From: Prevotella sp.
GTDB taxonomy: Bacteria; Bacteroidota; Bacteroidia; Bacteroidales; Bacteroidaceae
Direction: 5' to 3'
DNA: 46,182 nt
Assembly: GCA_017459445.1 (NCBI GenBank)
Contig: JAFUDJ010000001.1
Coordinates: forward strand, 1 to 46,182
Shown here: positions 19,684-24,234 of the stretch, one piece after another
Layout of the letters: the number at the start of each line of letters is the position of its first letter
Numbering within the stretch: position 1 is the stretch's first letter
Translations under genes and position numbers: made by a program
Notes under the pieces: generated by a model
Databases searched by the model: none
Told to the model about the DNA's origin: nothing
What the model saw: only the letters and a program-made list of their open reading frames with translations

Positions 19684-21087
19684 ATGGACACCAAGAAGAA
19701 CGAGAAGACCGACCTGCTGGCGTATATCCGCGAAGGGCGCACGATGACGCAGGGCGAGAAGCTGAGACTGATAGTCAGCCTCAGCATTCCGTCCATTCTG
19801 GCGCAGCTCTCGGCCACCGTCATGTTCTTCATCGACGCCTCCATGGTGGGTCACCTCGGCGCCAAGGCGTCGGCTTCCATCGGTCTTGTGGAGACCACCA
19901 CGTGGCTGATGGGCGGTCTGGGGTCGGCAGTCAACATGGGATTCTCCGTCCAGGTGGCCCACGCCATCGGCGCCAACGACTTCAAGCGTGCGCGGCGCAT
20001 CCTGCGGCAGTCGCTGGTGTGCAGCATGGCGTTCAGCCTCATGCTCTCCGTCTCCGGGCTCCTCGTCTGCCGTCCCCTGCCCTACTGGCTGGGCGGCACG
20101 GCGGAGATAGCCTCCGATGCCTCGCTGTATTTCGCCATCGTCGGCGTGTGCGGCATCTTCTTCCAGCTGGAGGGTCTGGCCGGCTCGATGCTCAAGTGCT
20201 CGGGCAACATGAAGATTCCGTCGATGCTGAACATCCTGATGTGCGTCCTGGACGTGCTGTTCAACTACCTCTTTATCTACGTCATCGGCCTCGGTGTCAT
20301 GGGAGCCGCCTTGGGAACTGGCATTGCCGAGTTCGTCACGGCGGCGCTGATGCTCTACTTCCTGCTCTTCCGCAGCAGCATGCTGGGCCTCTTCAGCGAC
20401 GATGAGAAGAAGAAGGAGAACAGCTGGGACAAGTTCAGACCCAGGGCCGACGTGGTGCGCAACGCCTTCAATATCGGCGCACCCATGGCCTTGCAGCACC
20501 TGCTGATGGGCAGCGCCCAAATAGTCAGCACGCTCATCGTCGCCCCGTTAGGCACCCTGGCCATCGCCGCCCACTCCCTTGGCATCACCGTCGAGAGCCT
20601 CTGCTACATGCCCGGCTACGGCATTGCCGAGGCTGCCACGACCCTCGTAGGGCAGAGTTTCGGCGCCCGCAAGCGGGCACTGACGCGCTCGTTCGCCTAC
20701 ATGTCGGCCGGCCTGGGCATGACGGTGATGACGCTGATGGGCGTGCTGATGTGGATTTTCGCGCCGGAGCTGATGTCGCTCATGACACCCGTCGACGACA
20801 TCATCGCCCTCGGCGCCGACTGCCTGCGCATCGAAGCCTACGCCGAGCCGATGTTCGCCGCCGCCATCGTGTGCAACGGCATCTTCATCGGCACCGGCGA
20901 CACGCTGCGACCCGCCATCATGAGCCTGCTGTCCATGTGGGGCGTGCGCCTGACGCTGGCCGCCCTGCTGGCTACTACCTACGGACTGCCCGGCGTATGG
21001 ACGGCCATGGCCATCGAGCTGACCTTCCGGGGCATCATCTTCCTCAGCCGGCTGCTGCATGGCGGATGGCTGAAAAAACTGCCATGA
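19684..21087 (+). CDS. MATE-family multidrug/metabolite exporter
   Basis: A 467-residue inner-membrane transporter with about 12 hydrophobic segments, the MATE norm. MATE antiporters use sodium or proton gradients to expel cationic drugs or metabolites. The two homologous halves are visible: IPSILAQLSATVMFFIDASM near residue 40 and IGAPMALQHLLMGSAQIVST near residue 270. The start at ATG 19684 follows a -7 element and gives a short cytoplasmic N-terminus (MDTKKNEKTDLLAYIREGR). The substrate is unknown. The gene stands alone, divergent from the hydrolase, and faces a minus-strand RNA unit beyond its 3' end. Confidence 0.9.
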   Translation: MDTKKNEKTDLLAYIREGRTMTQGEKLRLIVSLSIPSILAQLSATVMFFIDASMVGHLGAKASASIGLVETTTWLMGGLGSAVNMGFSVQVAHAIGANDFKRARRILRQSLVCSMAFSLMLSVSGLLVCRPLPYWLGGTAEIASDASLYFAIVGVCGIFFQLEGLAGSMLKCSGNMKIPSMLNILMCVLDVLFNYLFIYVIGLGVMGAALGTGIAEFVTAALMLYFLLFRSSMLGLFSDDEKKKENSWDKFRPRADVVRNAFNIGAPMALQHLLMGSAQIVSTLIVAPLGTLAIAAHSLGITVESLCYMPGYGIAEAATTLVGQSFGARKRALTRSFAYMSAGLGMTVMTLMGVLMWIFAPELMSLMTPVDDIIALGADCLRIEAYAEPMFAAAIVCNGIFIGTGDTLRPAIMSLLSMWGVRLTLAALLATTYGLPGVWTAMAIELTFRGIIFLSRLLHGGWLKKLP

Positions 21088-21125
21088 AAAAGTTGTGCAG
21101 CCTACGAACCACTCGCAGGCTGCAC
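21086..21125 (-). terminator. Intrinsic terminator of the minus-strand RNA
   Basis: On the minus strand a 9-bp stem, GTGCAGCCT with AGGCTGCAC, is followed by AACTTTTT. It would end leftward transcription just at the MATE stop codon. On the plus strand the same hairpin is followed by a weaker T-rich run. Confidence 0.75.
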
Positions 21126-21368
21126 TCGTTTTCTTTTCCTATTAATAACTAAAACCTTTGCTTTCTCTAAATTACCTTAGTTTACTAACACCTTTCTCTT
21201 TAACTAACTACTAACCAAATTACTAACTTTACGCTTATGAACTGTCTTCTTCTTTTTATATCGTTATCCTTTCCCTCTCCTGCAATCTTATTACCTTTTT
21301 ACCTATTTAGCAGTGTATCCTGATTCTTCTTACCTTTTGTCCTTAAACCTTCTTACCTTTTGTTTGAC
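21088..21368 (-). ncRNA. Purine-rich transcript without an ORF
   Basis: Between a promoter at 21373-21380 and the terminator at 21086-21125 the minus strand is A/G-rich, with repeated AAAGGTAAGAAG words and many stops. I found no ATG in the region. A noncoding RNA of about 280 nucleotides is inferred. Its promoter is a near-copy of the one driving the micropeptide at 22905. Confidence 0.5.
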
Positions 21369-21372
21369 GATG

Positions 21373-21455
21373 CAAAGGTACAACGTTTTCCGTTACGTTG
21401 TACCAACAGCATGTTTTTTTCGTCGAAAAAGTGGGTTATTCTTGATGCAAATCAA
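21373..21455 (-). promoter_or_regulatory. Promoter with Fnr/Crp-like box for the purine-rich RNA
   Basis: TACCTTTG (21373-21380) is followed by CATCGTCAAA. Upstream are CGGAAAAC and, 68.5 bases from the element to the box centre, TTGATGCAAATCAA (21442-21455), which fits TTGAT-N4-ATCAA. The box overlaps the last codons of ksgA. Confidence 0.6.
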
Positions 21456-22285
21456 GTCGCTGTGTCCGCACACGGCGCAATTATGTCCGCAAACAGTGCC
21501 TTTTCCACCCTATTTGTCAGCTCCACGAAGTCGGCAATCGACAACTGTTCCGGCCGGAGCGTCATGAAGTCATGGGCAAAGAGGTCATCGGCACCACCGG
21601 CGTCCCTGGGCAACAACTGGCGCAGCGACACGCGCAGCATCTTGCGACGCTGGTTGAACACGGCCTTCACCACCCGCCGGAACAGCTGCTCGTCGCAGCC
21701 CAGCTGCTGCCGGGCGTTGCGCGTCAGCCGGATGACGGCACTCAGCACCTTGGGCGGCGGATTGAATACCGTCGGCTCTACCGTGAAAAGATACTCCACG
21801 TCGTACCACGCCTGCAGCAGCACCGACAGGATGCCGTACTGCTTCGTGCCGGGCTGCGAAGCCATGCGCACCGCCACCTCGTGCTGTATCATGCCCGTAC
21901 AGCAGGGGATGAGGTCGCGGTTGTCGAGCATCTTGAAAAAAATCTGCGACGAGATGTCGTAGGGGTAGTTGCCCGTCAGCACAAACTGTCCGCCGCCGAA
22001 CACCTGCCGCAAGTCCATGCGCAGGAAGTCCTCGCCCAGAATGTTCTCGCGCAGCCGGGGGAAGTGCTCGTGCAGATAGGCCACCGACTCGCGGTCTATC
22101 TCCACCACCTTCAGCTGCCGGGGCTTCTCCACGAGGTATTGCGTCATCACCCCCATGCCCGGACCTACCTCCAGCACGGGCAGTTCAGCATAGGGTTCAT
22201 CCACCGTGTCGGCTATCCGACGGGCTATCGTCAGGTCGGTCAGGAAGTGCTGGCCGAGGTTCTTCTTGGGTCTTACCTGCTTCAT
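21452..22285 (-). CDS. rsmA: 16S rRNA dimethyladenosine transferase
   Basis: A 277-residue cytoplasmic methyltransferase (KsgA) that dimethylates two adjacent adenines near the 3' end of 16S rRNA late in 30S assembly. The family signature is clear: MKQVRPKKNLGQHFL at the start, the SAM-binding VLEVGPGMGVMTQYL, and the catalytic-site motif GNYPYDIS (NLPY variant). The start is the ATG before KQVRPKK; a longer open frame upstream adds 57 residues unlike the family and crosses the promoter. It has its own TTTG-N20-TAATTTTG promoter. The C-terminal codons overlap a palindrome that may control the neighbouring RNA. Confidence 0.95.
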   Translation of the reverse strand: MKQVRPKKNLGQHFLTDLTIARRIADTVDEPYAELPVLEVGPGMGVMTQYLVEKPRQLKVVEIDRESVAYLHEHFPRLRENILGEDFLRMDLRQVFGGGQFVLTGNYPYDISSQIFFKMLDNRDLIPCCTGMIQHEVAVRMASQPGTKQYGILSVLLQAWYDVEYLFTVEPTVFNPPPKVLSAVIRLTRNARQQLGCDEQLFRRVVKAVFNQRRKMLRVSLRQLLPRDAGGADDLFAHDFMTLRPEQLSIADFVELTNRVEKALFADIIAPCADTAT

Positions 22286-22318
22286 TCGTATCGGCAAAAT
22301 TGGCTTCTTTCGTGTCGG

Positions 22319-22350
22319 CAAAATTACAATTTGTTTCCGACATAGCCAAA
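22319..22350 (-). promoter_or_regulatory. Promoter of rsmA
   Basis: Minus strand: TTTG, 20 bases, TAATTTTG (22326 to 22319). Just downstream, AATTTTGCCGACACGAAAG and a near-copy with GATACGAATG form a 24-bp tandem duplication of the initiation region. Confidence 0.7.
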
Positions 22351-22478
22351 CATTCCCGCCGATTTCTTGCGGGCAAGCCCTCAAGATAATGGGCGGCGGC
22401 AGCTGGAATGACGGCCGATGGCAGCCGGAATAATGGCCAATGGCAGCCGGTTTCATGCCATTTGCCCGTCACCTCTTT

Positions 22479-22781
22479 GGCAAACGGAAATCAGTTTTCT
22501 GGCAAACGGAAATCAGTTTTCTGGCAAACAAAATTCAGTTTCTCCGCTAAACCAATATTATTTCTCCGCTAAACCGACTCTGTTTCTCCGCTAAACCAAC
22601 ATAGTTTACCGGAGAAATGAAACACGTTTAGCGGAGAAACTGGGTACGTTTAGCGGAGAAACAGCATTGAGAGTGACATAAAACTCTGAGCCGCACGGCA
22701 AAAAACTCTAAGCTACACGGCATAAAGCCCTAAGCTACCCGGCATAAACCCCTGAGCTACCCGGCATAACCCCCACAGCAA
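22479..22781. repeat. 22-bp-period array 2, four modules
   Basis: Word starts are spaced exactly 22 bp within each module: GGCAAAC at 22479, 22501, 22523; TTTCTCCGCTAAACC at 22539, 22561, 22583; the inverted GTTTAGCGGAGAAAC at 22626 and 22648 with a variant at 22604; and CACGGCA/CCCGGCA at 22694, 22716, 22738, 22760. Most units fit GTTT, seven or eight bases, AAAC. No gene is seen here. Confidence 0.9.
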
Positions 22782-22837
22782 TATGCCTGCAAACAACCCG
22801 GAAAACAAGGCTTGCAGCGCCCCGCGACAAAACACAA

Positions 22838-22872
22838 CGAAAAAGCCGCAGGCACAAACGGTCTGCGGCTTT
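22838..22872 (-). terminator. Intrinsic terminator of the micropeptide gene
   Basis: Minus strand: AAAGCCGCAG and CTGCGGCTTT, a perfect 10-bp stem with an 11-base loop, running into TTTTT. It lies 33 bases beyond the micropeptide stop. Confidence 0.88.
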
Positions 22873-22904
22873 ACACTATCTAACTAACACTCACTGTATG
22901 TTTC

Positions 22905-22997
22905 TTACTTTAAAAGTACCTTTGCATGCTTGCAAATGTACAGGGCCTCGACGGCTGCTACGGCCTCAACGGCCAGTGAAATCATTGTTAACATCAT
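22905..22997 (-). CDS. 30-residue single-span membrane micropeptide
   Basis: An ORF starting MMLTMISLAVEAVAAVEALY and ending ICKHAKVLLK. Residues 3-22 form one hydrophobic, Ala/Val/Leu-rich helix with two glutamates; the end is basic, suggesting an N-out or hairpin-free single span. It lies inside a complete small transcription unit: Fnr/Crp-like box, promoter, about 55-base leader with AAAGGA near the start, the ORF, and an intrinsic terminator. That layout is the main reason to believe it. I do not recognise the family. It could be a stress-induced membrane peptide or a toxin-like protein; both are inference. Confidence 0.65.
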   Translation of the reverse strand: MMLTMISLAVEAVAAVEALYICKHAKVLLK

Positions 22998-23057
22998 ACT
23001 CTTTTCCTTTCTCTAATCGTTTGTTGTTATCCTTTTGTCTTTTTCTTTTTGACGATG

Positions 23058-23140
23058 CAAAGGTACGGTGTTTTCCGCAAACAACCCCCGCCTCCGCAAC
23101 GGTTTCTACGGAAAAGCGACAATTCTTTGACGCATGTCAA
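23058..23140 (-). promoter_or_regulatory. Promoter with Fnr/Crp-like box for the micropeptide
   Basis: TACCTTTG (23058-23065) then CATCGTCAAA, with CGGAAAAC upstream and TTGACGCATGTCAA at 23127-23140. The distance from the -7 element to the box centre is 68.5 bases, identical to the promoter at 21373. Confidence 0.65.
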
Positions 23141-23156
23141 CAAAATCCCGAATCGT

Positions 23157-23188
23157 TTGACTTATATCAAAATTATTTTGTACCTTTG
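23157..23188 (+). promoter_or_regulatory. Promoter and second Fnr/Crp-like box for the flippase-like gene
   Basis: TTGACTTATATCAA (23157-23170) overlaps the -33 region; TACCTTTG follows at 23181-23188, 41 bases before the gene. Binding here would be expected to affect transcription directly. Confidence 0.55.
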
Positions 23189-23229
23189 CAGCAAACTTTA
23201 CCGATTGCCACGAAAGCAAGCATGAATCC

Positions 23230-24234
23230 ATGAAACTGGGCAGCATCATACTGAAGATACTCATGCCGCTGGTCCTGGGCGCGGCCATCCTCTACTGGAT
23301 GTACCGTGGAGAGGACTGGCAGCAGATTCGCCACGTGATGACCGACGAGATGGACTGGACGTGGATGCTGCTGTCGTTCCCGTTCGGCATCCTGGCACAG
23401 ATGTGCCGGGGCTGGCGGTGGCGGCAGACACTGGAGCCCGTCGGCGAGCATCCCCGTGCGTCGGTTGCCATCCATAGCATCTTCCTTTCCTACGCAGCCT
23501 CCCTGCTCATCCCAAGGGTCGGCGAGTTCATGCGCTGCGGCGTCCTGAAGCGCTACGACGGCGTTTCGTTCTCGAAAGCGCTGGGAACGGTGGTCACCGA
23601 GCGAGCCATCGACTCGCTGTTGGTCATGGGCATCACGGCCATTGTCCTGTTACTGGAGATGAGTACCTTCGGCACCTTCTTCCGCACCACGGGTACCAAC
23701 CTGCACGACATCCTGCACGGCTTCTCATGGGCGGGCTACTTCGTGGCCGCCGTCTGCGCCGTGGCCATCCTCATCCTGCTGCACTTCCTGCTGCGCAAGC
23801 TCTCTATATATAATAAGGTGAAAGCCACGCTGGGCGGCATCTGGCAGGGCGTCATCTCGCTTCGGCGGGTTCGCAACATCCCGCTGTTCGCGTTCTTCAC
23901 GCTGGCCATCTGGGTCAGCTACTTCCTGCACTACTACCTGACGTTCTTTTGCTTCGACTTCACGGCAGACCTCGGGCTGGGCTGCGCCCTGGTGACGTTC
24001 ATCGTCGGCAGCATTGCCGTCATCGTACCCACACCCAACGGTGCCGGACCGTGGCACTTCGCCGTCAAGACCATGCTCATCCTCTACGGAGTGGCCGACG
24101 AAAAGGCCCTCTATTTTGTGCTTATCGTACATACCGTACAGACCATGCTGGTCATTGCCCTGGGCATCTATGCCTGGCTGGCACTCAGCTTCACGAAAAT
24201 AAGAACTAACCCTCAAAACAACCTTAATTTATGA
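23230..24234 (+). CDS. LPG-synthase-TM/UPF0104-like membrane protein
   Basis: A 334-residue integral membrane protein with about eight hydrophobic segments. The pattern matches the lysylphosphatidylglycerol synthase transmembrane (flippase-like, UPF0104) family: CRGWRWRQTL near residue 60, LLIPRVGEFMRC around 97, TVVTERAIDSL around 120 and VPTPNGAGPWHFAVKTML near 265. Some relatives translocate lipids or glycolipids; substrate unknown here. Its TGA overlaps the ATG of pepD by ATGA, indicating translational coupling. It has its own promoter with an Fnr/Crp-like palindrome. The ATG at 23230 is preferred; another ATG eight bases upstream is out of frame. Confidence 0.85.
   Translation: MKLGSIILKILMPLVLGAAILYWMYRGEDWQQIRHVMTDEMDWTWMLLSFPFGILAQMCRGWRWRQTLEPVGEHPRASVAIHSIFLSYAASLLIPRVGEFMRCGVLKRYDGVSFSKALGTVVTERAIDSLLVMGITAIVLLLEMSTFGTFFRTTGTNLHDILHGFSWAGYFVAAVCAVAILILLHFLLRKLSIYNKVKATLGGIWQGVISLRRVRNIPLFAFFTLAIWVSYFLHYYLTFFCFDFTADLGLGCALVTFIVGSIAVIVPTPNGAGPWHFAVKTMLILYGVADEKALYFVLIVHTVQTMLVIALGIYAWLALSFTKIRTNPQNNLNL

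Follow-up and report, generated by a model that had tools for sequence, protein, structure and literature searches.

A large set of similar promoters with a Crp/Fnr-type box in Prevotella and related gut bacteria, probably controlled by one protein

In Escherichia coli, FNR activates the small RNA (sRNA) FnrS through an Fnr-type box, and in the envelope-stress regulons of the same organism (sigma-E, Cpx) sRNAs shut off outer-membrane importers alongside small envelope proteins. Here we consider two units on the minus strand of a 46,182-nucleotide stretch of Prevotella sp. DNA (assembly GCA_017459445.1, contig JAFUDJ010000001.1; hereafter the window), each preceded by a palindromic box of Crp/Fnr type. 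They belong to a large group of similar switches, shared by Prevotella and related gut bacteria and probably governed by one Crp/Fnr-type protein. Unlike FNR, the candidate regulator lacks iron-sulfur cysteines, and the promoters precede many different small products. The likeness to sigma-E and Cpx is purely functional; no homologous regulator was found here, and the analogy draws on one weak CpxP match and on the targets reported for FopS sRNAs in Bacteroides thetaiotaomicron.

The closest described systems come from B. thetaiotaomicron. FopS (RF04319) is reported there as an RNA of ~65-70 nt with a conserved 5' core, a variable terminator and several copies, induced by bile salts and shutting off glycan importers (SusC-like); the paper refers to a possible activator as 'an unknown transcriptional regulator' (PMC11697453). 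The same RNA occurs in our genus sample, where it is part of the box promoter class, whereas the FopS promoters of Bacteroides-named genomes have no Fnr-like box and often carry a Cur-like site; the RNA of window unit 1 is not FopS. Cur-MasB likewise pairs a Crp-family activator with a small RNA in a related genus, but its box and protein are different and it has one sRNA target, against a whole class here (PMC10994844). HcpR-SnoA also links a Crp/Fnr regulator with a regulatory RNA, but that RNA lies opposite the hcp promoter, the context is nitrosative stress and the protein is another one (PMC13370916). The predicted activator of the promoter class is named here for the ETLSR motif of its recognition helix. 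Paper searches on Prevotella regulons, micropeptides and Prevotella sRNA maps listed no description of the promoter class, nor did we find one of an ETLSR-helix Crp/Fnr global regulator in Bacteroidaceae.

We consider it probable (roughly 0.7) that the two units belong to a Bacteroidaceae-wide regulon in which the ETLSR regulator binds the box and activates mostly very small transcripts, with a second operator adding a further input. The promoter elements in the window are as follows.

21442..21455, minus strand: Crp/Fnr-type box of unit 1, TTGATTTGCATCAA, read from the sequence and by pattern scan
23127..23140, minus strand: Crp/Fnr-type box of unit 2, TTGACATGCGTCAA, read from the sequence and by pattern scan; its spacing is class-wide
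21373..21380, minus strand: -7 element of unit 1, TACCTTTG, 61 bases after the box
23058..23065, minus strand: -7 element of unit 2, TACCTTTG, 61 bases after the box

The sequence-only reading had placed two Crp/Fnr-type palindromes here, each followed at equal spacing by the same downstream elements, and the minus-strand sequence bears this out to the base: TACCTTTGCATCGTC starts at 21380 in unit 1 and at 23065 in unit 2, exactly 61 bases past each box, and in both units 68.5 bases separate the box centre from the first T of the -7 element, as claimed. Its description of the promoters as near-identical, and of the pair as a duplicated module, went too far. The two 83-base promoters agree at 46/83 positions, against a mean of 40.8/83 (s.d. 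5.5) for 703 pairs of other spacing-61 promoters, 18% of which are at least as alike; the likeness is therefore ordinary for the class. A local duplication in this genome as the source of both units would account for the shared order of elements, but not, unless they arose independently, for the counterparts of each unit that stand in place in other genomes, and we regard it as extremely improbable.

The class pattern, TTGAY-N4-RTCAA followed after 60-61 bases by TAnCTTTGCA, occurs in 59/60 genomes of the genus sample, the window's own included, while the reversed control gave 0. Among the 150 places listed, 80 have a spacing of 60 and 48 a spacing of 61 (128/150), and every other of the 31 allowed spacings (38-68) accounts for at most 3 places. 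FopS sites show the same rigidity: 31/31 fall at 59-61, though 45-68 was permitted. The predicted shared promoter class with a fixed box distance thus holds in the genus sample, where the proposed pattern search was carried out, and what follows the promoters was listed for 104 units. Across the family sample, a box lies 59-61 bases from TANNTTTG in 78/121 genomes, with 281 sites summed against 4 for the reversed control. The window's own genome has spacing 61 at three places (both window units and one place on contig 23) and at a further FopS on contig 37, and a plus-strand pattern with spacing 40 overlaps the unit 2 box.

Some variants of the arrangement were seen in passing. At C22:7364 of the same genome (L008, L009) a box stands at spacing 51, one helical turn nearer, and is followed by a short RNA, ~90 bases long and apparently ended by a terminator, and at own-genome locus L010 an apparent ferredoxin oxidoreductase subunit lies beyond the terminator. 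In L111 (G008 contig 28) two box promoters are in tandem, the second by eye seeming to serve a tRNA-Glu-like sequence.

The Crp/Fnr-type proteins of the genus sample fall into a few types, one of which, of ~200 residues, has the recognition helix TPETLSR. Its glutamate and arginine are those of Fnr, and E--SR fits the Fnr recognition code. The candidate (P0002) has no N-terminal cysteine cluster of the Fnr type: its three cysteines are scattered. Its sensory domain matches PF00027, the cNMP-binding type (E 6.7e-14, 52 bits, cut-off 27.5), and the Crp-type winged helix HTH_Crp_2 scores 13.2 bits against a cut-off of 27. The motif is usually PETLSR; ETLSR is present in the close orthologs read whose alignment reaches the helix (that of L400 stops short). 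A position-181 correlation relevant to the Fnr code is reported in PMC1274295. CrpPg of P. gingivalis (PMC12040651) is not treated as an ortholog, because its structure, 2GAU, is absent from the candidate's solved-structure matches at E 0.01.

Box and regulator co-occur. Counting homologues at E<1e-40 as orthologs, 67/73 family genomes with an ortholog and 11/48 without one have the box, and 37 of the 121 have neither. At genus level, where presence means an ortholog in half or more of the genomes and a mean of at least one box, 15 have both, one the ortholog only (g13), two the box only (g20, g25) and 12 neither; g20 is a single genome in which the reversed control also matched. Within g34, the two ortholog-bearing genomes coincide with the two that have a box. 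For g11, a box-free genus, the closest paralogs read carry TISTLSR (L420) and SIYTLSR (L419), the latter also found in L422 from G109, a one-box genome. This tracking of one protein across genera, together with the dyad symmetry and its Fnr-like half-sites, makes it very unlikely that the dyad, instead of being a protein site, serves as a structural feature of the DNA at strong promoters, a possibility raised by the A and T tracts that the consensus shows after the box. The sole box of one g24 and two g34 genomes is convergent to the regulator gene and ahead of a 40-44-residue CPTGM peptide. Loci L412, L413 and L414, in two other genera, place a box beside the regulator gene and then CPTGM-motif peptides of 40-44 residues, the one scanned having no NCBIfam match.

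FopS offers a comparison between genera. A scan of named genomes for the FopS core gave at least 80 loci; of 85 FopS rows, 79 were readable and 6 were dropped for want of a readable -7 element or enough upstream sequence; B. thetaiotaomicron itself is absent from the loci read. Among the matches listed, the box is found in 17/21 FopS promoters of Prevotella/Prevotellaceae-named genomes, 0/14 of Bacteroides-named genomes and 1/44 of the others. The Cur (BT4338) consensus is given as TATGTTnTAnAACATA in PMC6989115; its strict core TGTTnTAnAACA occurs in none of the 21 Prevotella/Prevotellaceae-named promoters, in 6/14 Bacteroides-named ones and in 20/44 others, and a looser Cur-like site in 1/21, 10/14 and 26/44, respectively. 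In the non-Prevotella loci (L226-L305), Cur-like palindromes stand near -48 in some promoters and near -16 in others, which suggests that these sites act in differing control modes.

Another Crp/Fnr protein, such as a Prevotella counterpart of Cur, might bind the box after a change of specificity. Cur does activate the sRNA MasB in B. thetaiotaomicron (PMC10994844), and its type of site is present in FopS promoters of Bacteroides-named genomes, but the Cur consensus (PMC6989115) is unlike the box. Cur-like protein, a label of our own set without comparison to the BT4338 sequence, served as a control: it is present in 111/121 family genomes, box-free genera included, and absent from the two genomes of g27, with their 10 boxes each. 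The Cur-like helices read are SRLNVSR-like and lack the glutamate. We judge this explanation unlikely.

The products of the class were surveyed in 104 distinct units (106 less 2 duplicates), taken from 100 of the 133 places with spacing 58-63 outside the window's genome (33/133 not included), plus that genome's three spacing-61 units; the counts were drawn, among the matches listed, from the genomes listed first. A scripted rule assigned 14 units to the FopS core, 27 to a membrane micropeptide, 22 to a longer open reading frame (ORF; at least 90 codons, LONG) and 41 to none. Inspection by eye qualifies these classes: six of the 41 'no ORF' units have small ORFs (L052, L063, L070, L087, L110, L126), membrane peptides were missed in L056 and L081, two micropeptide assignments (L118, L140) sit late in an RNA, the LONG assignments L062 and L091 are RNAs after which the next gene comes, and one L111 unit seems to stand ahead of a tRNA.

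RF04319 was matched at 71-79 bits (cut-off 56) four times in 3/12 loci scanned (L109, L115 twice, L125), and the other 10/14 FopS units were assigned by core pattern alone. The core GGTATTAGATTTAAGGTTAA, with up to 4 edits, also recurs in the no-ORF class, with 27 matches in 17/41 units against 0.9 expected from dinucleotide shuffles. RbpB of B. thetaiotaomicron is reported to bind FopS sRNAs through the 41-nt motif that led to the RF04319 family (PMC11697453), and by analogy the FopS-core RNAs here are predicted to bind the same kind of RNA-binding protein. A recurrent RNA of 200-300 bases, family A, accounts for 21 units (19 of the 41 without ORF and two ruled LONG), and five members scanned had no Rfam match. 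Clustering of the downstream sequences by blastn was not used, as it lumped 93/104 into one group, probably through common low-complexity motifs.

The 22 long-ORF units include twelve similar small secreted proteins, four lysine/alanine-rich proteins (the one scanned is a DUF2582 winged helix) and one scanned outer-membrane barrel. Of the small secreted proteins, that of L119 has no Pfam match at 0.01, a 10-row profile found no solved relative at E 1, and that of L134 matches CpxP weakly (E 0.0065, 16 bits, cut-off 148); a CpxP identity, for which this match is the sole basis, was not adopted. NCBIfam has no family for one further micropeptide of the window's type, one of the 31-residue kind, one of 38 residues, one CPTGM peptide and one L076 peptide, and gives a single weak match for the L087 peptide. 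In 27 equal-length micropeptide pairs (52-97% identity; the pairs are not independent), differences at codon positions 1/2/3 number 215/133/400, a third-position excess that is the pattern expected of translated genes. Taken by their products (FopS, membrane peptides, small secreted proteins), the class would seem to answer to nutrient or envelope status.

These products bear on the suggestion, made from the window, that the pair responds to redox or nitrosative stress. A redox or NO sensor, Fnr or HcpR, could be supposed to drive both units, given that the box fits the Fnr consensus and resembles delta-proteobacterial HcpR sites, TTGACnnnnGTCAA (PMC1274295). However, no hcp or nrfA was recognized among the 104 units, by eye and not by a family scan of every ORF, and the HcpR2 motif reported for Bacteroides, GTAACnnnnGTTAC (PMC1274295), is unlike the TTGAYnnnnRTCAA box. 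The proteins taken for HcpR-like have helices such as ARPSVSR, and the candidate regulator lacks the Fnr cluster. The redox suggestion is not supported, and we hold such a sensor to be quite unlikely.

Besides the box there is a second palindrome, TGTKTGCGCAMACA, at a few favored positions that vary with product class. In the window it is found in both units.

21461..21474, minus strand: second operator of unit 1, CGTGTGCGGACACA, 2 mismatches, centre 19 bases upstream of the box centre, where no-ORF units most often have it
23070..23083, minus strand: second operator of unit 2, TGTTTGCGGAAAAC, with 3 mismatches; it takes the 'core' position, where micropeptide promoters most often have it

Allowing up to 3 substitutions, TGTGTGCGCACACA is present in 65/104 box promoters against 4/65 other TAnCTTTGCA promoters of the same loci; the position survey also allowed TGTTTGCGCAAACA. 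Three locations account for most operator centres: 17-21 bases upstream from the centre of the box, 23-24 bases downstream from it, and the core promoter. The upstream position is found in 26/41 no-ORF units and 6/63 others, the midway position in 10/22 long-ORF units and 2/82 others, and the core position in 12/27 micropeptide units and 13/77 others, with no second operator in 35/104. Matches were keyed by locus, so that two-unit loci share them, each unit was given its most upstream class, and many units are paralogs, such that these counts overstate independence. Both window units fit, unit 1 with an upstream and unit 2 with a core operator, and four relatives have a similar palindrome just upstream of the box, as in unit 1. 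The CpG centre of the operator resembles those of LacI-family operators; a LacI-type repressor is our guess.

The mechanism we propose is predicted from sequence as to binding, activation, transcript starts and RNA function. The ETLSR regulator, a Crp/Fnr-superfamily protein of ~200 residues, would bind TTGAY-N4-RTCAA centred ~80 bases upstream of the predicted start (taken from the Rfam FopS 5' end) and, always on the same face of the DNA, activate a promoter of primary-sigma type (TAnnTTTG) in the manner of class I Crp. Class I Crp sites activate through the alpha subunit of the polymerase; the ~80-base distance, the fixed spacing and the 51-base member would fit this mode. Its targets would comprise FopS sRNAs, longer FopS-core RNAs, membrane micropeptides and small secreted proteins, and the second operator, whether upstream, midway or on the core promoter, would supply a second input by product class. 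A signal, perhaps of nutrient or envelope state, would activate the regulator; FopS, FopS-like RNAs and small envelope products would then rise together, and the raised FopS-type RNAs would lessen import through SusC-type channels, provided that the repression of SusC-like importers by FopS reported for B. thetaiotaomicron also holds in Prevotella.

More tentatively, and at somewhat less than even odds, we propose that a Bacteroidaceae ETLSR global regulator of which our paper searches found no description, with a regulon mainly of noncoding RNAs and micropeptides, is the missing FopS activator in Prevotella; that in Bacteroides this sRNA family has been rewired and come under a Cur-type site; that the CpG-centred operator sets a code by its position, the upstream site marking RNAs, the midway site small secreted proteins and the core site micropeptides; and that the longer FopS-core RNAs are multi-site decoys for a FopS-antagonizing RNA-binding protein.

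Several observations weigh against the regulon as proposed. Six genomes have an ortholog and no box, and 11 a box and no ortholog. Six of the latter are g25, where the four homologues read are 29-34% identical and all keep ETLSR, and where G131 and G149 have no homolog at E 0.001. G005 has a 37%-identical PETLSR protein and no strict promoter match. The window's own genome has no close ETLSR ortholog (best E 2.3e-6), which is unsurprising as this genome is only half complete (55%). Genomes of one genus are not independent, so the Fisher values for co-occurrence are too strong. A box lies near the regulator gene in just 3/60 loci, so that autoregulation is not general. The FopS rows of Segatella baroniae and Paraprevotella, close Prevotella kin counted among the others, lack the box, and the unit 1 RNA has neither a FopS-core match at up to 4 edits nor any Rfam match.

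The products and surroundings of the two window units are listed below.

22905..22997, minus strand: 30-codon membrane micropeptide of unit 2, MMLTMISLAVEAVAAVEALYICKHAKVLLK, with an A-rich ribosome site, read from the sequence; homologues lie beside rsmA in L429 and L442
22838..22872, minus strand: intrinsic terminator of unit 2, hairpin and T run by reading, also flagged by script
21087..21368, minus strand: RNA of unit 1, purine-rich and lacking an ATG, its predicted start based on the 5' end that Rfam gives for FopS; counterparts follow rsmA in relatives
21086..21125, minus strand: intrinsic terminator of unit 1, hairpin and T run by reading, also flagged by script
21452..22285, minus strand: rsmA (ksgA), between units 1 and 2; TIGR00755 match at 21509-22276, start read from the sequence
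23157..23170, plus strand: a further Crp/Fnr-type dyad, TTGACTTATATCAA, within the promoter of the divergently transcribed LPG_synthase_TM gene, 23230-24234

What the sequence-only reading had said of the products stands: unit 2 has a 30-residue membrane ORF (22997-22905), unit 1 is a purine-rich RNA (71% purine across its first 248 bases) whose sole ATG within the 288 bases read falls just past the terminator, and each unit ends in a hairpin with a T run, at 22872-22838 and 21125-21086. In the window no Rfam family matches at gathering score; RF04319 has no such match in the window or in L011. A tRNA search of the window found no gene, and its micropeptide has no Pfam match and no NCBIfam family. 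Among the best-scoring 30 rsmA loci, picked regardless of boxes, a box at 60/61 with a micropeptide stands just upstream in 8/30 and a box at 60/61 just downstream in 5/30. The window's micropeptide shares 73% identity with that of L429 and 63% with that of L442. In four relatives (L429, L434, L438, L444) the downstream unit can be aligned with unit 1 over the promoter, a 3' motif and a terminator that changes its stem; those of L429 and L434 reach what looks by eye like the same convergent MATE gene. With counterparts in place in other genomes, both units look like old genes in place and old members of a large class.

The dyad TTGACTTATATCAA (TTGAC-N4-TCAA type) lies 10 bases from TACCTTTGC (23181-23189) of the LPG_synthase_TM promoter, which a protein bound there would block, such that one regulator might repress that gene and activate unit 2. 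Between the micropeptide unit and rsmA, at ~22540-22655 on the minus strand, are several direct and inverted copies of TTTCTCCGCTAAAC.

For Prevotella, in contrast to Bacteroides, these data predict a concrete regulator, its site and a rigid spacing. The promoter class is a separate line of evidence for dozens of micropeptides and RNAs being real and co-regulated genes, and it offers a comparative case in which one sRNA family would have swapped its transcriptional master between related genera.

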